Positions 8,666-55,820 of a stretch of DNA of 64,000 nt are shown one piece after another. Position 1 is the first letter of the stretch; each line of letters starts with the position of its first letter. Source of the DNA: Qipengyuania gaetbuli (GTDB taxonomy: Bacteria; Pseudomonadota; Alphaproteobacteria; Sphingomonadales; Sphingomonadaceae); NCBI RefSeq assembly GCF_020524765.1, contig NZ_JAIVLR010000001.1, positions 1,302,001-1,366,000 of the forward strand, written 5' to 3'. The position numbers and the translations under genes were made by a program. The notes under the pieces were generated by a model. The model saw nothing but the letters and a program-made list of their open reading frames with translations, was not told the origin of the DNA and ran no database searches.

Positions 8666-9258
8666 GAGGGCAGGGCGCCTTCCTCGCGCAGCGCGTCCAA
8701 TACCTGCAGCAAAGGCATGCCAAGCACGGTGAACTGGTCGCCCATGATGCTGTCGAACAATTGGACGCCGGGACCCTCGATCCGGAACACGCCGACGCAG
8801 TAGGAAACCTCGGGCCATTCGGCATCGAGATAGGCCTCGATGAATTCCTCGGAGAGTTGGCGGACCTTCAGCCGGGCGAAGTCCGATCCCATCCACACGA
8901 TGCGCCCGTCTCGCGCCAGCGCGGCGGCGCTGTGCAGCGTCATGGCCTTGCCAGAAAAGAAGCGCAGGTGTTCTGCCGCCTGTTCGCGCGTCGCCGGCTT
9001 GTCGAACCGCCGCCCCTCGACCTCAACCAGAGAATCGCTGCCGAGAACGAGGCCCTTCGCCTCCACCGCAGTTGCCTTCGCCGCAGCCAGCGCCTGCGCG
9101 ATTTCGGCCGGTTCCGCGTCTTCCATTTCCGCCTCGAGTGCGCGCTCGTCCACGTCGCCAGCACGCGCCTCGAAAGCGACGCCTGCCGCTTCGAGCATCG
9201 CCTTGCGCGAGGCAGAGTTCGAGGCGAGGATGATGCCTTCGCCTGCAATCGCGCTCAT
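8662..9258 (-). CDS. maf: Maf family nucleotide pyrophosphatase
   Basis: House-cleaning nucleoside triphosphate pyrophosphatase of 198 aa. The Maf signature [17 protein letters not shown] opens the protein, and the catalytic aspartate lies in [12 protein letters not shown]. The family hydrolyses dTTP/UTP or modified nucleotides such as m7GTP; having S rather than T in GSDSL hints at the YceF (m7GTP) branch, but this is not decisive. ATG overlaps the ppsR stop (ATGA). Confidence 0.9.
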
Positions 9259-10145
9259 ATTGCCTTGCCTCCTTCGAATTCGCCTGCCGCCTTGTGGCTG
9301 CGTTCGCTGCACAGACGGATGATTGCAGCTGCGGTTTCCTCGATCGAGCGGCGCGTCACGTCGATTACCGGCCAGCCATTGTCGGCGAACATGCGGCGGG
9401 CGAAGGCAACTTCCGACTTCACCCGTTCGTTGTCGATATAGGCGGTCTGTGACTGCTCGTTGAGCGTCAGCAGGCGATTGCGGCGGATCTGGACCAGCCG
9501 TTCGGGCGCGGTGGTCAGGCCCACGACGAGCGGCTTCTTCAGTTCGAACAGCTTGGGCGGCGGCGGGCTTTCCACCACCAGCGGGATATTGGCCACCTTG
9601 TAGCCGCGGTTGGCGAGGTAGATGCTGGTCGGCGTCTTGGAACTGCGCGACACACCGGCAAGGATGATGTCGGCCTCTTCCCAGTTCTCCCAGCCGATCC
9701 CGTCGTCATGGGCGATAGTGAATTGGATCGCCTCGACCCGTTCGAAATAGGCCTTGTCCATCTGGTGCTGGCGGCCGGGCCGACCGTGCGCCTCCTGGCC
9801 CAGCGCCTTTTCCAGCGCTTCGGTCACGCGGTCGAGGATCGGCACGGCGGGCAGGCCGTTCTGGGTGCACACTTCCTCCAGCCGCGCGCGGGCTTCGGGA
9901 TTGACGAGAGTGAACAGGACGAGGCCCGGATTGGCCTTGAGTTCGGGCACGATGCGGTCGAGATGCTGACGCGAGCGCACCATCGGCCAGAAATGCCTGA
10001 CGACATCCGCATCGTCGAACTGGGCGAGCGCGGCCTTGGCCAGCATTTCCAGCGTTTCACCGGTGGAATCGGACAGCAGGTGGAGGTGGATGCGGTCGGT
10101 TATGGTTGCGACTTTCGGCCTGTGGAGAAGCGCCGGATAAACCAC
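9255..10145 (-). CDS. ppsR: PEP synthase / PPDK regulatory protein (DUF299), origin-flanking
   Basis: Bifunctional serine/threonine kinase and Pi-dependent pyrophosphorylase that switches phosphoenolpyruvate synthase or pyruvate phosphate dikinase off and on. [15 protein letters not shown] marks the N-terminus and [15 protein letters not shown] is the P-loop. The start is uncertain: homologues begin close to the [11 protein letters not shown] segment, but no ATG is available there. The only standard codon nearby is GTG at 10145, without a clear Shine-Dalgarno sequence; an ATG at 10220 would add 25 poorly conserved residues. In Caulobacter this gene (RP001/DUF299) borders the chromosomal origin opposite hemE, as here. 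Confidence 0.9.
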
Positions 10146-10353
10146 GGGACAGGTCTGCCGACAAGTTCGGGGATGAATTCCCTCCCCGCTACGAGTCCTG
10201 TTCGGGGGCGATTCCCGCACAGCAAATCCGATTTATGCGCAGGCTGGGGACAGCAGGGATAAGTTTGACTCGACTCAAGCCATCTGCCGAGTCGCAATCC
10301 GCCCCTCGCCCTTTCCCTTGCTGGAGAAATCAGGCAGGGGGCCGCTATGCCCA

Positions 10354-10362
10354 TTATCCACA
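10354..10362 (+). promoter_or_regulatory. Consensus DnaA box
   Basis: TTATCCACA, an exact match to the high-affinity DnaA-binding consensus, 18 bases before the AT-rich block and 61 bases before the hemE start codon. Confidence 0.85.
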
Positions 10363-10380
10363 GGGCCAACAGACTCCTTC

Positions 10381-10410
10381 AACTCTTATAATAATCATTT
10401 TTATTGGATT
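10381..10410. other. AT-rich candidate DNA-unwinding element
   Basis: Thirty bases containing only five G or C, against a strongly GC-rich background. It follows the DnaA box at the distance expected of a duplex-unwinding element and abuts hemE. It could also include promoter elements for hemE. Confidence 0.65.
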
Positions 10411-10423
10411 GGACTCTCTCTCG

Positions 10424-11449
10424 ATGCCCGGCCTCCTGCTCGACACTCTGAACGGCAAGCGCGCGGACAAGGTGCCGCTCTGGCTCATGCGCCAGGCTGG
10501 TCGGTACCTTCCCGAATATCGCGAACTGCGCGCCGAGAAGGGCGGCTTCCTCGCCATGGCATATGACAGCGAGGCGGCGTGCGAGATTACCTTGCAGCCG
10601 ATCGACCGGTTCGGTTTCGACGGGGCGATCCTGTTCTCCGATATCCTGATCGTGCCGCACGCCATGGGCCAGCACCTGGAATTCCTCGCCGGCGAAGGTC
10701 CCAAGCTCTCGCCGCCGCTGGTCGATGCCGCGCTCGAAGGGCTGGCGGCCAACCATTCGCGCTACGAGCCGATCTACCAGACCGTGCGCCTGTGCCGTCA
10801 GCGGCTGCCCGAAGGCGTTACCATGCTGGGCTTTGCCGGCAGTCCCTGGACCGTCGCCACCTACATGGTCGCAGGCGAGGGCAGCCGCGACCAGCACGAT
10901 GCCCGCGCGCTCGCCTATCGCGATCCGGGCAAGCTCCAGGCAATCATCGATGCCATCGTCGGCGACACGGTCGAATATCTTTCCGGCCAGATCGAGGCGG
11001 GTGCCGAAGCGGTGCAATTGTTCGATTCCTGGGCCGGGAGCCTTGCGCCCGACGAGTTCGAACGCTGGGTCATCGCGCCCAATGCCGCGATCGTCGCTGC
11101 ACTGGCACAGCGCCATCCCGATACGCCGGTGATCGGCTTCCCCAAGGGTTCGGGCGAAAAGCTGCCCGCCTATGCCCGCGAGACGGGCGTGAAGGCGGTC
11201 GGTGTGGACGAAACGCTCGATCCGCTGTGGGTCGCACGCGAATTGCCCGCCGGAATGGCCGTACAGGGCAATCTGGACCCGCTTTTACTGCTTTCGGGTA
11301 GTCCGGCCCTCGAAGGGCGCATCAAGGCAATCCTGGAGGCTTTTTCGGACCGGCCCCATGTCTTCAACCTCGGCCACGGGATCGACCGGCGCACGCCGAT
11401 CGAAAACGTCGAGCGGCTGATTGCCACCGTGCGCGGCTGGCAGGGGTGA
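10424..11449 (+). CDS. hemE: Uroporphyrinogen decarboxylase
   Basis: Decarboxylates the four acetates of uroporphyrinogen III to give coproporphyrinogen III in heme synthesis; 341 aa. Substrate-binding LMRQAGRYLPEYR with R23 and R27, FSDIL with Asp73, and a C-terminal FNLGHGI motif are present. The ATG giving MPGLLLDTLNGK is used; the frame is open 106 codons further back across the origin, but that stretch is not coding. Directly downstream is hemJ, a later step of the same pathway. No clear Shine-Dalgarno sequence is visible. Confidence 0.95.
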   Translation: MPGLLLDTLNGKRADKVPLWLMRQAGRYLPEYRELRAEKGGFLAMAYDSEAACEITLQPIDRFGFDGAILFSDILIVPHAMGQHLEFLAGEGPKLSPPLVDAALEGLAANHSRYEPIYQTVRLCRQRLPEGVTMLGFAGSPWTVATYMVAGEGSRDQHDARALAYRDPGKLQAIIDAIVGDTVEYLSGQIEAGAEAVQLFDSWAGSLAPDEFERWVIAPNAAIVAALAQRHPDTPVIGFPKGSGEKLPAYARETGVKAVGVDETLDPLWVARELPAGMAVQGNLDPLLLLSGSPALEGRIKAILEAFSDRPHVFNLGHGIDRRTPIENVERLIATVRGWQG

Positions 11450-13803: not shown

Positions 13804-14205
13804 TCAGCCGGCTTTCTGCCTTTCGAGCTGGGCAGCCATCATTTCCCAGACCTTGTTCACTGCCTTGAGCGGTCGGACCATGACCTTGAAATCGGCAATC
13901 ATGCCGTCCTCGTCGAAGCGGATGAGGTCGATACCGTTGACCTTGATGCCGTCCATCTCGGTGGTGAATTCAAGCATGGCATTCTCTCCGTCCACCAGTT
14001 CGCGGACATAGGTGAAGCTGTCGTTGCCGAGCGTCTGTCCCGCGGCAGAAAGATAGGCGACGACGATCTCGCGCCCTTCCTGGGGGGTGTGGACGACCGG
14101 CGAATGGAACACGGCATCGGGCCGCATGATCGCTGCGAGCTCGGCCGGGTCGGACCCGTTCTCGATAACCTTGTGCCAGCGCGCGAGGCCTTGTTCCGCA
14201 CTCAT
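13804..14205 (-). CDS. NTF2-like / SnoaL-like family protein
   Basis: A 133-residue cone-fold protein: WHKVIENGSDPAELAAIMRPDAVFHSPVV is the typical opening and the domain ends in polar helices. Members include isomerases, hydrolases and scaffolds, so no reaction is assigned. ATG is preceded by AGGAGA. The start overlaps the stop of the upstream FMN-binding protein gene (TGATG), so it is the third gene of a minus-strand operon with a dienelactone-hydrolase-like enzyme. Confidence 0.8.
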   Translation of the reverse strand: MSAEQGLARWHKVIENGSDPAELAAIMRPDAVFHSPVVHTPQEGREIVVAYLSAAGQTLGNDSFTYVRELVDGENAMLEFTTEMDGIKVNGIDLIRFDEDGMIADFKVMVRPLKAVNKVWEMMAAQLERQKAG

Positions 14206-15791
14206 CAATGTCTCCTGAAACTGTTGGCCCGCGCCGCTTCCCAGTGGCGGGCGAGGGGAGTCGAGGACGGCTTGTCCAGCAATACGCCGGGTTCCGCGAA
14301 GTAGTAGATCTTGTCGAAGGCGTCCGAGCGTGCGCCGTTGATGCGCTCGCGCATGTCCATCGGCTGCATCTGCCATGGATTGTCGAGGCCCATGGCGATG
14401 GTGATTTCCTTCAGAGCATGCAGCGTCTGGCGCTGGAAACGGGCGACGCGCGGCGCCTTGTCCTCGACTACCAGGCCGCGCTGGCGCCAGGCGTCCTGCG
14501 TGGCAATCCCGGTCGGGCAGGTACCCTTGTGGCAGTTCATCGACTGGACGCAGCCGAGCGAGAACATGAAAGGCCGGGCGGCATTGCACCAGTCTGCACC
14601 CAGGGCGAAGCTCTTGGCCATCTGGGCGCCCGAATGGATCTTGCCGGAGGTCGCAATCTTGACCTTGTCGCGGAATTCCGTGCCGACGAGCATGTTGCGC
14701 ACGAAAATCTGCCCTTCGCGCAGCGGCATGCCAACCGAATTGCTCAGTTCGAGCGGGGCGGCACCGGTACCGCCTTCGGCCCCGTCCACCGTGATGAAAT
14801 CGGGGTGCAGTCCGGTCTCGATCATCGCCTTGCCTATGGCGAAAATCTCGTGCGGCTGGCCGACGCACAGCTTGATGCCGGTGGGCTTCCCACCCGACAG
14901 GTCGCGCAGGCGAGTCACGAATTCCAGCAATTCGATCGGCGTATCGAATTCGGGATGGGCTGCCGGCGAGGTTACAGTCTCGCCGACAGGCACGCCGCGC
15001 GCCTCGGCGATTTCGGGCGTGACCTTTATACCGGGCAACACACCGCCATGGCCGGGCTTGGCGCCCTGGCTCAGCTTCAATTCGATCATCTTGACCTGAT
15101 CGCTTGCGGCATTGTCGCGGAACTGCTCGGGATCGAAGCGGCCGTCCTTTGCGCGGGCGCCGAAATAGCCGCTGCCCAGTTCCCAGATGAGATCGCCGCC
15201 CGGTTCGCGGTGGTACTTGCTGATCGATCCTTCGCCGGTGTTGTGCGCGAAATTGCCGAGTTTTGCCCCTGCATTGAGAGCCTCGATCGCTTTCGCAGAC
15301 AGCGAACCGAAGCTCATCGCCGAGATATTGAGCAGCGAGGAGGAATAGGGCTTCGCGCAGGTCTTCTCTCCCACAGTGACCCGCCATTCCTCGGGTGTAT
15401 CGCGCGACGGGGCAATGGAGTGGCCGACCCACTCGTATTCGTCTGAATAGACGTCGAGTTCGGTGCCCATCGGATGCGAATCGAGATCGCCCTTGGCCCG
15501 CGCATAGACCAGGGCGCGCGCCTGGTGGCTGAAGGGGCGTCCCTCCAGATCGTCTTCCACGATGTAGGACTGCGCAAAGGGGCGCAGGTCTTCCATTACC
15601 CACCTGATGCGGGCGACGAGCGGGTAATTTCTCCTAAGTGTATGTTTTTCCTGTGCAAAATCCCATATTGCGAGGAGTAGGCCAGGCAGGAGGATCCATA
15701 AGGTCCAGCGTGCCGGTTCGAATATCCAGGCCGCGCCGACCAGCACGTAGAGGGCGACCGGGATGATGTAGCGGAAGGGAAGCCTTTCCAC
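14205..15791 (-). CDS. FMN-binding glutamate-synthase family protein, membrane anchored
   Basis: A 528-residue protein with two N-terminal hydrophobic helices (about 7-43) followed by the FMN/Fe-S synthase domain of glutamate synthase (from about residue 130). Seen: LLNISAMSFGSLS, KPGHGGVLPGIK, FITVDGAEGGTGAAP (FMN phosphate loop) and the 3Fe-4S cysteines in GCVQSMNCHKGTCPTGIA. The N-terminal glutaminase domain of GltB is absent, so classical GOGAT activity on glutamine is unlikely unless a partner supplies ammonia. Many alphaproteobacteria carry such copies with unknown substrate. Confidence 0.88.
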   Translation of the reverse strand: MERLPFRYIIPVALYVLVGAAWIFEPARWTLWILLPGLLLAIWDFAQEKHTLRRNYPLVARIRWVMEDLRPFAQSYIVEDDLEGRPFSHQARALVYARAKGDLDSHPMGTELDVYSDEYEWVGHSIAPSRDTPEEWRVTVGEKTCAKPYSSSLLNISAMSFGSLSAKAIEALNAGAKLGNFAHNTGEGSISKYHREPGGDLIWELGSGYFGARAKDGRFDPEQFRDNAASDQVKMIELKLSQGAKPGHGGVLPGIKVTPEIAEARGVPVGETVTSPAAHPEFDTPIELLEFVTRLRDLSGGKPTGIKLCVGQPHEIFAIGKAMIETGLHPDFITVDGAEGGTGAAPLELSNSVGMPLREGQIFVRNMLVGTEFRDKVKIATSGKIHSGAQMAKSFALGADWCNAARPFMFSLGCVQSMNCHKGTCPTGIATQDAWRQRGLVVEDKAPRVARFQRQTLHALKEITIAMGLDNPWQMQPMDMRERINGARSDAFDKIYYFAEPGVLLDKPSSTPLARHWEAARANSFRRH

Positions 15792-18168: not shown

Positions 18169-18184
18169 TGTTTCACGTGGAACA
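18169..18184. other. parS: parS site 1
   Basis: TGTTTCACGTGGAACA fits the ParB-binding consensus TGTTNCACGTGNAACA exactly. It lies between mnmE and mnmG, 2.5 kb before parA. It is the reverse complement of parS site 2. Confidence 0.92.
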
Positions 18185-20083: not shown

Positions 20084-20712
20084 TCGGCGATGAAGGCAGC
20101 GCGCGCCAGTATGTCGCCCGGTTCGCCGATGCAGCTGCGCTCGAACGCCTGGAACGGCTCGGCAGCGCACTTGCGCAGGAAAACAAGCGCCAGAACCTGG
20201 TGGCCAAGGCCTCGCTTGATAGCATGTGGTCGCGGCACTTTGCCGATTCGGCGCAGCTTCTCGACCATGTTCCACGTGAAACATCGGGACCGTGGCTGGA
20301 CCTCGGGACGGGGGCGGGCCTTCCGGGGCTCGTCATCGCAGCTCTCCGCCCTGAGATGGAGGTTGTGCTCGTCGAATCGCGCAAACTGCGAGTTGCCTGG
20401 CTCGAGCGGATGAGGGACGAACTTGATTTGGCAAACTGTCATATCGAGGGCAGCCGGTTGGAACTGGTCGAAAGTTTTCCGGCAGGCGTGATTTCAGCAC
20501 GAGCCTTCGCTCCGTTGCCGAAACTCCTCCGGTTATCCGCACGCTTCTCCACAGAGCGGACGCATTGGGTGTTGCCCAAGGGGCGGTCGGCAGCGCAGGA
20601 AGTGCAGGAACTTCCAAAAACGCTCCGAAACATGTTCCACGTGGAACAATCTGTTACGGATAGCGAGGCCGGAATGGTCGTTGGCAGGGGCAAAGTGAGG
20701 GAAAAACAATGA
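20080..20712 (+). CDS. rsmG: 16S rRNA (guanine527-N7)-methyltransferase RsmG
   Basis: SAM-dependent methyltransferase of 210 aa acting on G527 of 16S rRNA. The SAM loop is [13 protein letters not shown] and the downstream [12 protein letters not shown] fits the family. Two parS sites lie inside the coding sequence and encode HVPRE and MFHVEQ, which explains those otherwise non-conserved residues. Coupled by ATGA to mnmG upstream and parA downstream. Confidence 0.94.
20268..20283. other. parS: parS site 2 (inside rsmG)
   Basis: TGTTCCACGTGAAACA, exact match to the consensus and the reverse complement of site 1. It lies within the rsmG reading frame. Confidence 0.93.
20633..20648. other. parS: parS site 3 (inside rsmG, perfect palindrome)
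   Basis: TGTTCCACGTGGAACA, a perfect 16-bp palindrome matching the ParB-binding consensus. It lies 61 bases before the parA start codon. Confidence 0.95.
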
Positions 20713-21500
20713 TTACCGTCGCAATTGCCAACCAGAAGGGCGGAGTGGGCAAAACCACGACCGCCATCAATATCGCAACTGCGATGGCCGCCACCGGCTG
20801 GAAAACCCTGCTCATCGACCTCGATCCGCAAGGAAACGCTTCGACTGGGATGGGGATTGAAGGCTCGGCGCGCGAATACACCAGTTATGACCTTCTTCTC
20901 GAAGAAGCATCGCTGGCCCAGTGCGCCCAGCCGACGGAAATTCCAGGGCTGGATATCGTGCCGGCAACCCAGGACCTGTCCGGCGCCGAGGTTGAACTCG
21001 TCTCGGTGGAAGATCGCACCGCGCGCCTTTCCAAGGCTCTGGGCCAGGCCGGGAAGGGTGGATTCGCCGGATACGACATCTGTTTCATCGATTGCCCGCC
21101 TTCGCTGGGCCTGCTGACGCTGAATGCCTTGGGCGCGGCGGACACACTGCTCGTGCCCCTGCAATGCGAGTTTTTCGCCCTGGAAGGCCTTAGCCAGCTC
21201 TTGCAAACGGTGGAGCGGGTGCAGCAGCGCTTCAATCCCGATCTCGGCATTGTCGGCGTTGCGTTGACGATGTTCGACCGCCGTAACCGCCTGACCGACC
21301 AGGTGGCCGACGATGTTCGCGATTGCCTCGGCAATCTGGTTTTCGAAAACGTCATTCCGCGCAATGTTCGCCTGTCGGAAGCGCCGAGCCACGGGATGCC
21401 CGCGCTCGTCTATGACCACAATTGTCCCGGCAGCCGCGCCTACATCGGATTGGCGCGCGAGCTGATCGGGCGCCTGCCGGAAAGAAGGAAGGCCGCATGA
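20709..21500 (+). CDS. parA: Chromosome partitioning ATPase ParA (Soj)
   Basis: Deviant Walker-type ATPase of 263 aa that moves ParB-parS complexes during chromosome segregation. Walker A KGGVGKTT with signature Lys10 and Lys15, switch I DLDPQGNAS, and Walker B CFIDCPPSLG are intact. No N-terminal DNA-binding extension, as expected for a chromosomal ParA. Stop overlaps the parB start (ATGA). Three parS sites lie within 2.6 kb upstream. Confidence 0.96.
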   Translation: MITVAIANQKGGVGKTTTAINIATAMAATGWKTLLIDLDPQGNASTGMGIEGSAREYTSYDLLLEEASLAQCAQPTEIPGLDIVPATQDLSGAEVELVSVEDRTARLSKALGQAGKGGFAGYDICFIDCPPSLGLLTLNALGAADTLLVPLQCEFFALEGLSQLLQTVERVQQRFNPDLGIVGVALTMFDRRNRLTDQVADDVRDCLGNLVFENVIPRNVRLSEAPSHGMPALVYDHNCPGSRAYIGLARELIGRLPERRKAA

Positions 21501-22435
21501 GCCAAGCTATCGACCGCAAGAAGAAACTCGGCCGTGGCCTCGGCGCGCTTCTGGGCGAGGTCCAGCGCGAAGAGCCGCTAATCAATTCCTCGAGCGAAAG
21601 CAGTGATTTAACCGGTTCGACGCCTGCTCAAGCCACATCCGGGCTCGCCAGCATTCCGGTTGCGGATATCGAACCCCTACCCGGGCAGCCGCGTACCCAT
21701 TTCGACAGCGATGCGCTGGACGAGCTTGCGGCCTCGATCGCCCAGCGCGGCGTTATCCAGCCGATTATCGTCACGCCGCGAAGCGGGGGGCGCTATCGCC
21801 TCGTTGCCGGCGAACGTCGCTGGCGTGCAGCGCAGCGCGCAAGGCTCCACCAGATACCCGCCATCGTCCGCGAACTCGATCAGCGCGAAGTTCTGGCGCT
21901 GGCGCTGATCGAAAACCTCCAGCGCGAAGATCTCAACCCGCTGGAAGAAGCGCGGGCATATCAGAAGCTTGCTGATGACGAGGGGATGACCCAGGCGGAA
22001 ATCGCCGGCCTTGTCGACAAGTCGCGCAGCCACGTCGCCAATCTCCAGCGCCTGCTGGCGCTTCCCGAGGACGTCCTTGCCCTCCTTGCGAACGGCAGGC
22101 TTTCCATGGGCCATGCCCGCGCGCTGATCGGCAACGAGGGCGCATCGGAACTCGCCTCGCGCGCGGTGAAGGAAGGTCTTTCGGTCCGCGAAGTCGAGAA
22201 GATGGCGCGCAAGGGCGGGGCTTCTGCCAAACCGCGCAAGTCGCGTCCCAGCGTGCCCGAAGCCGAGACCGATGCCGATATCGCGGCGGTGCAGGGGCAT
22301 CTGGAGGAATTTCTCGGACTGCCGGTGCAGATCAGGACCGACGGCACGCCGAATACCGGTACGGTGACCATTCGCTACCGCACGCTCGACCAGCTGGACC
22401 TTATCTGCCAGCGCCTGACCGGCGGCGATATCTGA
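21497..22435 (+). CDS. parB: Chromosome partitioning protein ParB (Spo0J)
   Basis: parS-binding CTPase clamp of 312 aa. LGRGLGALLGE opens the protein (11-21, ParA-contacting region); the CTP-binding motif GERRWRAAQ starts at residue 105; LIENLQREDLNPLEEA follows; the helix-turn-helix is MTQAEIAGLVDKSRSHVANL; the C-terminal dimerisation domain is present. The ATG overlapping the parA stop is chosen, preceded by AAGAAGGAAGG. Together with parA and three nearby parS sites it forms a complete segregation locus. Confidence 0.96.
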   Translation: MSQAIDRKKKLGRGLGALLGEVQREEPLINSSSESSDLTGSTPAQATSGLASIPVADIEPLPGQPRTHFDSDALDELAASIAQRGVIQPIIVTPRSGGRYRLVAGERRWRAAQRARLHQIPAIVRELDQREVLALALIENLQREDLNPLEEARAYQKLADDEGMTQAEIAGLVDKSRSHVANLQRLLALPEDVLALLANGRLSMGHARALIGNEGASELASRAVKEGLSVREVEKMARKGGASAKPRKSRPSVPEAETDADIAAVQGHLEEFLGLPVQIRTDGTPNTGTVTIRYRTLDQLDLICQRLTGGDI

Positions 22436-53338: not shown

Positions 53339-53797
53339 TCAGTTGGCGACGGTAAGCTCCGGCTGCTTGGCCTGCTGCGCGGGGGCGGCGGCCTTCACCG
53401 ACTTGTCGCGGTGGGCGAAGCGGCCTTCGACCTGTGCGCCCTGTTCGATGGTCAGCGCGTCGTAATAGACGTCGCCGGTAATCTTCGCGCTCTTCAGGAT
53501 GACCAGTTCGCGGGCCGTGATCGAGCCGTTGACCGTGCCGGCCAGGCGAGCGGTTTCTGCCTTCACGCCGCCGGTGATCGTGCTGGTTTCGCCCTGCACG
53601 AGGCTGGAGCAGGCGATGTCGCCTTCCACGCTGCCGTCGATGTGCAGGTCGGCCGAAGCCTTGATATCGCCCTTGATGGCGAGATCGGAACCGAGAACGG
53701 AGAAGGTCGAGTTGCTCTTGCTGGCCATGGGAATGCTGCGTCCGGAATTAGTTGGCGTCGGCGAGCTCAGGGGCTCGGCGGATTTCTTCGAGAACAT
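53339..53797 (-). CDS. bacA: Bactofilin (polymer-forming cytoskeletal protein)
   Basis: A 152-residue bactofilin (DUF583). The central beta-helix core (about 32-128; STFSVLGSDLAIKGDIKASA, HIDGSVEGDI) is bracketed by disordered tails. The start giving MFSKKSAEPLSS is preferred because it matches the usual bactofilin N-terminus and lies inside the upstream peptidase gene (50-base overlap); an internal ATG 23 codons later gives MASKSN. With the M23 peptidase it forms the well-known bactofilin-endopeptidase pair that shapes cells. Confidence 0.92.
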   Translation of the reverse strand: MFSKKSAEPLSSPTPTNSGRSIPMASKSNSTFSVLGSDLAIKGDIKASADLHIDGSVEGDIACSSLVQGETSTITGGVKAETARLAGTVNGSITARELVILKSAKITGDVYYDALTIEQGAQVEGRFAHRDKSVKAAAPAQQAKQPELTVAN

Positions 53798-54965
53798 GGG
53801 GGGCGGTCTCCAGGAAAGTACGCGGGTTGACCGCGCGATTGTTGATCCGGACCTCGAAGTGGAGGTGCGGACCGGTCGAGCGACCCGTGCTGCCGATGGC
53901 ACCGATGGTCTGGCCCGGCAAAACCTGCTGGCCGACCTTGGCATTGAACTTCGACATGTGCGCATAGCGCGTCATCAGGCCGTTGCCGTGGGTGATTTCG
54001 ACCGTGTTGCCGTAGCCGCCCTTGCGGCCGACGAAAGTGACGCGGCCCTTGGCGGCGGCGTAGATCGGGGTGCCGGTGGCGCCCTTGAAGTCGAGGCCGC
54101 TGTGCATTGCGGCGCGGCCGTTGAACGGGTCGCGGCGATAGCCGAAGCCCGACGAGATCAGGTCCTTGCGGGCCGGGGCGAACTGCGGGACGCCTTCGAG
54201 CGCCTGTTCGAGCGCGGCCATGCGCGCCATCGACAGGCCGAGGCGTTCGAAGCGCGGATCGATCGAGCCGTCGGCATCGGTGGCAAGCCCTTCGAGCGGA
54301 CCACCCATCGCCTGGTTGCGGCTGGAACGGATGACCTGGGCGGGATTGAGCTGGAGCTGCTTGAGCGCTTCGGCGGCACGCTGGGCGCGCCAGTCGGCAT
54401 AGCGGGTGAGGCCTTCGACCACGGCCAGCTGGCGGGCTTCGATGCGGGCGAGTTCTGCGGCCTGCGGGAAGGCGGCGCTGACCTTCTCGACCGTGGCGGC
54501 GGCTTCGCCGGTGCTGTCGGACACGGCGGTGTCGACCTTCATTTCCTCGGGCAGCAGTTCGGCCACGCCCTCGATGAATTCCATGCGGCGGTCGAGGTCG
54601 GCGCTGACTTCCTCGAGATTGTCGCCATAGGCGGCGAGGCGTTCTTCCGAGGTCGCGACCTTGGCTTCGCGGTCGAGCAGCGAGAGGCGGTCCGAAGCGG
54701 CACGGTACTGCGCCCAGCCGGCGACCGCCATCGACACCGCCCACACGAACAGCACCGCCACGGCGATTGCCGCAGCGGTCATCTGCACACGCGAGGAGAT
54801 GGTGATGAAGCGGACCTGGCCTTCGGAGCGCATGAAGAACTCGCGATCCGGGAACCAGCTCTTGATACGGGCGATGCGACCGCCCTGTGCGATGTTGTTA
54901 TCCAAAACGACCCGTCCCTTGGTCTTTGACCCTTGGGTGGGATCGCTAACAACAGTTCCCGGCAA
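53748..54965 (-). CDS. M23 family metallopeptidase, bactofilin-linked
   Basis: A 405-residue single-pass membrane LytM peptidase. Cytoplasmic N-terminus to about 60, transmembrane segment (about 63-84, AAAIAVAVLFVWAVSMAVAG), a helical periplasmic region with coiled-coil character, and the LytM domain with zinc ligands in HSGLDFKG and HLHFEV. TTG start has AGGA seven bases upstream; an ATG 44 codons downstream would be too short to keep the conserved DNNIAQGGRIARIK segment. First gene of the operon with bacA. Confidence 0.9.
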   Translation of the reverse strand: MPGTVVSDPTQGSKTKGRVVLDNNIAQGGRIARIKSWFPDREFFMRSEGQVRFITISSRVQMTAAAIAVAVLFVWAVSMAVAGWAQYRAASDRLSLLDREAKVATSEERLAAYGDNLEEVSADLDRRMEFIEGVAELLPEEMKVDTAVSDSTGEAAATVEKVSAAFPQAAELARIEARQLAVVEGLTRYADWRAQRAAEALKQLQLNPAQVIRSSRNQAMGGPLEGLATDADGSIDPRFERLGLSMARMAALEQALEGVPQFAPARKDLISSGFGYRRDPFNGRAAMHSGLDFKGATGTPIYAAAKGRVTFVGRKGGYGNTVEITHGNGLMTRYAHMSKFNAKVGQQVLPGQTIGAIGSTGRSTGPHLHFEVRINNRAVNPRTFLETAPHVLEEIRRAPELADAN

Positions 54966-54969
54966 AGGC

Positions 54970-55148
54970 GAATCCTGACCCCACCGAATCCACGAGTCGA
55001 AGAGTAAGCGGGACGAGTCGTTTCATCTGCGCGAAATTTCCGAACTTTTGCGGGAACCATTCCCTAAGTCGTTGTTTACCATGCGTCCACCGATTCGGCC
55101 CGATTCCGTCCCAATGACAAGGGTTTATGCGCCTGCTAGGGCCGATTC
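54970..55148. promoter_or_regulatory. GANTC-dense divergent promoter region (M23-bacA / nadD)
   Basis: Seven GANTC sites at 54970, 54986, 54994, 55015, 55092, 55102 and 55144 within 179 bp, two groups flanking a 72-base gap. The region lies between the divergent starts of the M23 peptidase and nadD. GANTC methylation by CcrM controls promoters in Caulobacter; comparable density occurs in this window only at oriC. Confidence 0.7.
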
Positions 55149-55820
55149 ATGAGCGGCTCGGGAACAGCGTGGCGAATCGGTCTGTTGGGTGGCAGTTTCA
55201 ACCCGGCCCATGGCGGGCACCGGCGCATCTCGCTGTTCGCGCTCGAAGCGCTCGGCCTCGACGAGGTGTGGTGGCTGGTTTCGCCGGGTAACCCGTTGAA
55301 ACCCAAGGCGGGCATGGCCCCGCTCTCCGCGCGGCTCGCCTCTGCGGCGCAGCAGGCGAGGCGCGCCCCGATCCGCGCCACCGCGATCGAGCGCGAGCTT
55401 GGCACGCGCTACACGGTGGACACGCTGGGCGCGATCCAGCGGCGCTATCCCAAGTTCGAATTCGTCTGGCTGATGGGGTCGGACAATCTCGCCCAGTTCC
55501 ACCTGTGGCGCGACTGGCGGCGAATTGCACGCAGGATGCCGATTGCGGTGATCGCGCGGCCCGGCTATGATGCGGATGCTGTCGCGAGCCCCGCGATGGC
55601 CTGGCTGAGGCGCTACCGCGTCCCGCTCGCCAGCTTTGCAAATGGGGGCGAATGGAGCGCACCGGCACTGGTGACATTGCGTTTCGATCCCGACCCGCGT
55701 TCGGCAACGGCCATCCGCCGCGCCGACCCCGACTGGGCATCGCACCACGCCGGTTTTTCCCCGCGAGACCAGGTGACACACCGCCTCATTCCTCACGAGG
55801 AGGAAACGACTGCGCCATGA
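55149..55820 (+). CDS. nadD: Nicotinate-nucleotide adenylyltransferase
   Basis: Adenylates nicotinate mononucleotide in NAD synthesis; 223 aa. Nucleotidyltransferase motif GGSFNPAHGGH (HxGH form) and the C-terminal signature RSATAIRRA (ISSTxIR type) are present, with WWLVSPGNPLK between them. The ATG begins exactly after a GANTC site. First gene of the nadD-rsfS-rlmH-envC-ctpA series, an arrangement typical of alphaproteobacteria. Confidence 0.94.
   Translation: MSGSGTAWRIGLLGGSFNPAHGGHRRISLFALEALGLDEVWWLVSPGNPLKPKAGMAPLSARLASAAQQARRAPIRATAIERELGTRYTVDTLGAIQRRYPKFEFVWLMGSDNLAQFHLWRDWRRIARRMPIAVIARPGYDADAVASPAMAWLRRYRVPLASFANGGEWSAPALVTLRFDPDPRSATAIRRADPDWASHHAGFSPRDQVTHRLIPHEEETTAP

Follow-up and report, generated by a model that had tools for sequence, protein, structure and literature searches.

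The 64,000-nucleotide stretch of Qipengyuania gaetbuli DNA analysed here (the window) covers bases 1,302,001-1,366,000 of contig C1, in a genome of 2,798,678 bases and four contigs (1,685,147, 966,973, 145,292 and 1,266 bases). Two genes diverge from a short gap in its left part: ppsR (DUF299, kinase-pyrophosphorylase) on the minus strand at 9255-10145, and hemE (uroporphyrinogen decarboxylase) on the plus strand at 10424-11449, with its ATG at 10424. Pfam assignments on both sides (Kinase-PPPase, E 4.7e-97, match from residue 21; URO-D, E 2.1e-108) confirm the divergent pair with a non-coding gap that had been recognised from the sequence. The first bounds given for this gap were 10146-10423, but the conserved region starts about 25 bp further left. 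The ppsR start at GTG 10145 is doubtful, and the true start probably lies nearer 10100. In many relatives ppsR aligns only from about residue 18, and the box TTCTCCACA and most of one conserved block sit inside the N-terminus that had been assigned to ppsR. The gene has no ATG where many relatives seem to start; the options are GTG 10145 or a rare ATA.

The genes on both sides had been described as leaving the gap codirectionally, which is mostly correct. The Pfam names on the left are all on the minus strand (Kinase-PPPase, Maf, shikimate dehydrogenase, CoaE, an exonuclease) and those on the right all on the plus strand (URO-D, UPF0093, Rho, MnmE, GidA, GidB, a ParA-type protein, ParB); the description fails for frames at 13804-15791, with a glutamate-synthase domain and a SnoaL-like domain, which face the gap. 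The reading frame of hemE is open over the whole gap (10106-11449), so an automated gene call might mistake the probable origin for the beginning of hemE.

Sequence elements of the gap

In agreement with the original prediction, a motif search found a perfect DnaA box, TTATCCACA, at 10354-10362 on the plus strand. It is the sole perfect copy within the window. The left box, TTCTCCACA (10121-10129, minus strand), has 1 mismatch and the weak DnaA-like box TTATGCGCA (10233-10241, plus strand) has 2, so that several boxes are present only in a modest sense; their small number counts against an origin. The perfect box is not enriched genome-wide, since it occurs 5 times in 2.80 Mb and its reversed control 13 times, and the 6 matches with at most 1 mismatch in the window were equalled in 9 of 100 shuffles. 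At the observed genome frequency, however, any one gap of 278 bp would contain a perfect box with a chance of about 5e-4 (hand arithmetic). Among 340-bp stretches of the window, 0.7% have at least three matches with at most 2 mismatches, as this one does.

The AT-rich block that had been noted in the gap, at about 17% GC, was borne out. It lies at 10381-10410 with 5 G+C in 30 bases (16.7%) and is the lowest-G+C 30-mer of the window as well as the sole stretch with at most 5 G+C in the 384 kb of full local data (all bases 1,102,001-1,486,000). Alignments show the AT-rich end also in relatives. The block is a probable duplex unwinding element. On its bottom strand, 7 triplets with a middle A (10385-10405) form a run of candidate DnaA-trios, with a shuffle P of 0.01. 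Across 33 loci, the bottom-strand run exceeded the control on the opposite strand in 21 and fell short of it in 6. Just 4 of the 33 loci passed the shuffle at 0.05, and we therefore keep the trios as a suggestion only. The conserved GGGCCAACAGACTCC (10363-10377, plus strand), which includes one GANTC site, lies between the perfect box and the AT-rich end. The perfect box is followed first by a GC-rich spacer and then by the AT-rich triplets, the order of the basal unwinding system (BUS) of Bacillus subtilis; however, the triplet run here begins 22 bp past the perfect box, and the published DnaA-trio search permits no more than 16 bp (PMC8287927, available part of the text).

Seven GANTC (CcrM) sites start at 10193, 10210, 10267, 10272, 10289, 10372 and 10412. 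The sample mean is 0.38 per 340 bp, and the 340 bp from position 10033 are the second GANTC-densest in the 384 kb. The densest such stretch, with 8 sites at 54835-55175 of the window, lies where an M23 peptidase gene (53748-54965, minus strand) and an open frame at 55149 (plus strand) diverge; it is perhaps a promoter pair controlled by CcrM and GcrA. With GTNAC as the background control, GANTC reached 13.5 per kb in 75 related gaps versus 2.1 in their flanks, while GTNAC stood at 1.6 versus 2.1 per kb; at least 3 GANTC sites were present in 64 of the 75 gaps. A class-wide draw gave a hemE match in 98 of 115 genomes. From the best 29 loci besides the window's own, 4 were dropped for want of a divergent ppsR, leaving 25 gaps, 2 of them from the window's family. 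GANTC was enriched here too (6.4 per kb versus 1.2 in flanks), with GTNAC also up (2.9 versus 1.8), and a high GANTC density as a speciality of sphingomonads was accordingly discarded.

There is no TTAA in 10100-10440 and thus no TTAA-N7-TTAA CtrA site there, and the full CtrA motif occurs in 1 of the 75 related gaps. The same interval holds no match with at most 1 mismatch to WATCAANNNNTTR, which we take to be the IHF consensus; a more degenerate site would escape this search.

Conservation of the gap in relatives

The hemE loci compared are the best 80 named matches listed, from which the nearest records are possibly absent. The five best named among them, Citromicrobium, Tsuneonella, Pontixanthobacter, Croceibacterium and an Erythrobacteraceae MAG, share 73-77% hemE protein identity with the window, which probably puts the organism in this part of Sphingomonadales. 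In 75 of these 80 loci ppsR lies divergently upstream of hemE. The exceptions are locus L093, whose 139 bases before hemE are too few to show a ppsR, and four loci labelled Sphingomonas (L090, L123, L124 and L132), with no ppsR match within 2.5 kb upstream of hemE.

An alignment of 32 near loci and an alignment of the window with 20 fetched stretches revealed a conserved non-coding footprint. It runs in the order TGTGGA box, ATAAACCACGGGA, GACAAG, TTGAC, GA(G/T)TCG, GGGCAG, TCCACAGGGCCAACAGACTCC, AT-rich end and hemE, and varies in single alignment rows. The cores of both outer boxes are conserved in near relatives; that of the left one, TGTGGA, reaches at least 90% across the 32 aligned near loci. 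On the right, 33 of 76 gaps, window included, have the core TCCACA no more than 110 bp from hemE. Two of these 33, again counting the window, have the perfect 9-mer; relatives retain the TCCACA core instead. The core is missing at this distance in 43 of the 76 gaps, nearly all from the Sphingomonas side, which counts against the gap as an origin; in the 17 rows shown, the Sphingomonas-side boxes are placed more centrally in the gap.

The block ATAAACCACGGGA (10137-10149) is present in one copy each in 54 of 196 genomes of the order, against 12 copies of its reversed control in 11 genomes. It was found in 13 of 16 genomes of the window's genus, and 18 of 20 fetched copies, including all 12 from the same genus, sit at the ppsR-hemE gap; the copies in L187 and L193 lie elsewhere. 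With 54 of 196 genomes, the block was rejected as a signature of the whole order. GACAAG (10160-10165) follows ATAAACCACGGGA at a spacing that a pattern search found identical in 25 of the 32 near loci. Most simply, the ATAAACC-GACAAG pair would be the ppsR promoter on the minus strand (CTTGTC ... TTTAT), or possibly a regulator site. The conserved TTGAC (10265-10269, plus strand) is a putative -35 element of a promoter towards hemE. A promoter scan returned one site only, on the minus strand and overlapping the perfect box, and none at these proposed promoter blocks.

Position of the gap in the genome

As a marker of replication direction we used GGGNAGGG, the FtsK (KOPS) motif of E. coli, which the FtsK of this organism may also read; its strand bias was seen directly in the genome. 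In a sparse sample of 418 kb, window included, the motif turns from mostly minus to mostly plus along C1. On C2 it is plus as far as the dif match, and on C3 it is minus. This sample places the switch in a 2-lnL interval of 1,145,745-1,307,340, which ends 5 kb short of the gap and counts against it. In the full local data of 384 kb, where the motif was counted from fetched stretches, the best switch point is 1,304,595-1,307,340 and the 2-lnL interval 1,304,595-1,319,803 (15 kb). The gap (1,312,146-1,312,423) lies inside this interval at 0.27 lnL below the best point; only the full local data include it. The counts are 13 plus and 30 minus to the left of the gap and 23 plus and 2 minus to its right. 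A replichore switch thus falls within 15 kb that hold the gap. For about 0.8 Mb around the gap cumulative GC skew hardly changes, and its minimum within the 384 kb, in a weak skew, lies at 1,453,845, about 141 kb from the gap. GC skew, a check suggested with the original prediction, thus does not mark the gap, and it was dropped as an origin locator because it is too weak.

Three parS-like sites were found at 18169-18184 (C1:1,320,169; 1 mismatch), 20268-20283 (C1:1,322,268; 1 mismatch) and 20633-20648 (C1:1,322,633; 2 mismatches). They are all that the genome holds at up to 2 mismatches, and form a cluster 7.7-10.2 kb from the gap, close by as expected of a chromosomal origin. The parA and parB genes follow on the plus strand at 20709-22435 (Pfam AAA_31, E 7.7e-59; ParB_N, E 9.7e-34; HTH_ParB, E 3.3e-30). 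Exact matches to the parS sequence TGTTYCACGTGRAACA lie 5-19 kb from hemE in all 5 named relatives, C1 being taken in each as the contig that bears the hemE match.

The dif core (at most 1 mismatch) has one match in the genome, an exact one at C2:956,708, and the control has 0. The polarity of GGGNAGGG flips there, with 30 plus and 1 minus before and 0 plus and 2 minus after in the sample. This polarity suggests that C2 follows the end of C1 and is itself followed by C3, which leads back to the start of C1. Given this contig order, the arms from gap to dif measure about 1.33 and 1.47 Mb (hand arithmetic), and dif is nearly opposite the gap. The same holds in relatives. Among the 5 named ones, dif was exact in 3, found only as 1-mismatch matches in Sphingomonas phyllosphaerae, and not found at up to 1 mismatch in Erythrobacter ani; it was exact in 8 of 8 further relatives. 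With both sites on one contig, the gap-to-dif distance comes by hand arithmetic to 46.8% of a near-whole-genome contig in Erythrobacter sp. NAP1, to 52.5% (G194), 54.7% (G259), 49.2% (G167), 49.6% (G142) and 50.2% (G245) of such contigs in other genomes, and, from rounded genome totals, to about 51% (G309), 51% (G304), 52% (G231), 53% (L073) and 59% (L117).

Discussion

Overall, our data indicate, with a probability of about 0.95, that the main chromosome has its oriC in the ppsR-hemE gap, between about 10120 and 10415. This reading is based on the elements of the gap, their conservation and the layout of the whole genome. The original prediction of an origin rested on the gene neighbours, one box and the AT-rich block; it is now supported by the switch of GGGNAGGG, the parS cluster, a dif match that lies near-opposite in relatives and, given the suggested contig order, in this genome, and the conserved footprint.

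As stated in that prediction, the origin of Caulobacter crescentus (Cori) lies between the same two genes: the available part of PMC1914354 places it between hemE and the COG1806/DUF299 gene, with DnaA boxes and an AT-rich stretch. The gap described here shares these traits, namely a non-coding divergent ppsR/COG1806-hemE gap, DnaA boxes and an AT-rich region of predicted unwinding, and several GANTC motifs are likewise present in Cori (PMC3973325). In contrast, five DnaA boxes, five CtrA sites and an IHF site are reported for Cori (PMC1914354, partial text), whereas we found three boxes, no TTAA and, at up to 1 mismatch, no IHF match. The missing CtrA motif excludes only the CtrA-regulated subtype of hemE-type origin, because hemE-type origins without a CtrA motif are published (in the accessible text of PMC1914354).

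Within the family, the oriC of Sphingopyxis granuli TFA also adjoins hemE, and DoriC predicts likewise for most Sphingomonadaceae; in a comparison of Sphingopyxis strains the gene order is conserved, and DnaA boxes as well as a putative DUE are seen (PMC4741004, as far as its text is available). According to the available text these predictions rest on Ori-Finder and comparison; the present analysis contributes motif polarity, parS and dif. The origin of Novosphingobium sp. PP1Y is near hemE and also near a DnaA gene (PMC4059872, available part), whereas here dnaA is on another contig (C2) than the gap (C1). A conserved position of dnaA near ori is reportedly lacking in Sphingomonadales (PMC8116508, part of the text). 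A hemE origin is thus already published for Sphingomonadaceae (PMC4741004) and Caulobacter (PMC1914354), each in the part available, and with the location in print for the family our finding of oriC is right but ordinary.

The gap could instead be a mere divergent promoter region with DnaA-regulated promoters, with the origin elsewhere, for example at dnaA; we consider this very improbable, though it is the best of the alternatives. Its blocks of fixed spacing do resemble promoter parts, GANTC is over-represented more than 1.5-fold in alphaproteobacterial intergenic regions (PMC3973325, available part), and the region upstream of dnaA itself has 7 GANTC in 455 bp (L022 2430-2884, C2). However, the strand switch, the parS cluster and the dif match speak for the gap. 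The sampled GGGNAGGG sites are plus on both sides of dnaA (C2:50.7 kb), although a single sampled site represents the left side on C2. Upstream of dnaA there is one box at up to 2 mismatches, which has 2. An origin next to dnaA, which the original prediction had given as an example of a location that would overturn it, therefore finds no support, with no switch in the sparse samples and one poor box.

Slightly less probable still is an origin near the gap at another point of the 15-kb switch interval, such as the parS cluster. The width of that interval leaves room for it, and the parS-like site at 1,320,169 is just outside, with the other two slightly further. Against it, the gap itself has the AT-rich extreme of the 384 kb and the conserved non-coding footprint with its boxes, and the mapped origin of Caulobacter is the ppsR-hemE gap (PMC1914354, partial text). 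Hardly worth entertaining is a coding gap, as a long N-terminal extension of hemE: the listing of open reading frames does show the frame 10106-11449, but the distance from the right-hand box to hemE in 33 gaps steps through 58, 59, 60, 61, 62 etc. and not by threes, the blocks of the gap are conserved as DNA, and the Pfam match begins at residue 5 of the protein from ATG 10424.

Binding of DnaA to its boxes, opening of an AT-rich stretch, bidirectional forks and segregation through ParB and parS belong to the general biology of DnaA-dependent origins. With the ppsR-hemE gap as oriC, DnaA would bind the outer boxes (10121-10129, minus, and 10354-10362, plus) and the weaker sites between them. 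It would extend from the right-hand box over the GC-rich spacer and open the AT-rich block just before hemE. Forks would then depart both ways, and ParB on the parS sites 8-10 kb off would move the new copy. Once the fork has passed, the GANTC sites probably signal the hemimethylated state, and they may act on two divergent promoters via GcrA, which this genome encodes, and CcrM.

No CtrA switch like that of Caulobacter is apparent. A further reading would have a Sphingomonadales origin without the CtrA switch, in which dense GANTC together with GcrA and CcrM times initiation or transcription at the origin, and to which ATAAACCACGGGA-N10-GACAAG belongs in part of the family. We regard this as unlikely, and GANTC methylation as a timing device is speculative. 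Loss of CcrM left initiation undisturbed in Caulobacter, where CcrM is not required for initiation control (PMC3973325), which counts against such timing.

Taken together, placing oriC in the ppsR-hemE gap fixes the likely replication map of this genome. It gives the hemE location support that is independent of Ori-Finder, on the Erythrobacter/Novosphingobium side of Sphingomonadales. Moreover, the conserved footprint, with its many GANTC sites and almost no CtrA motifs, makes the timing of initiation in sphingomonads a testable question.
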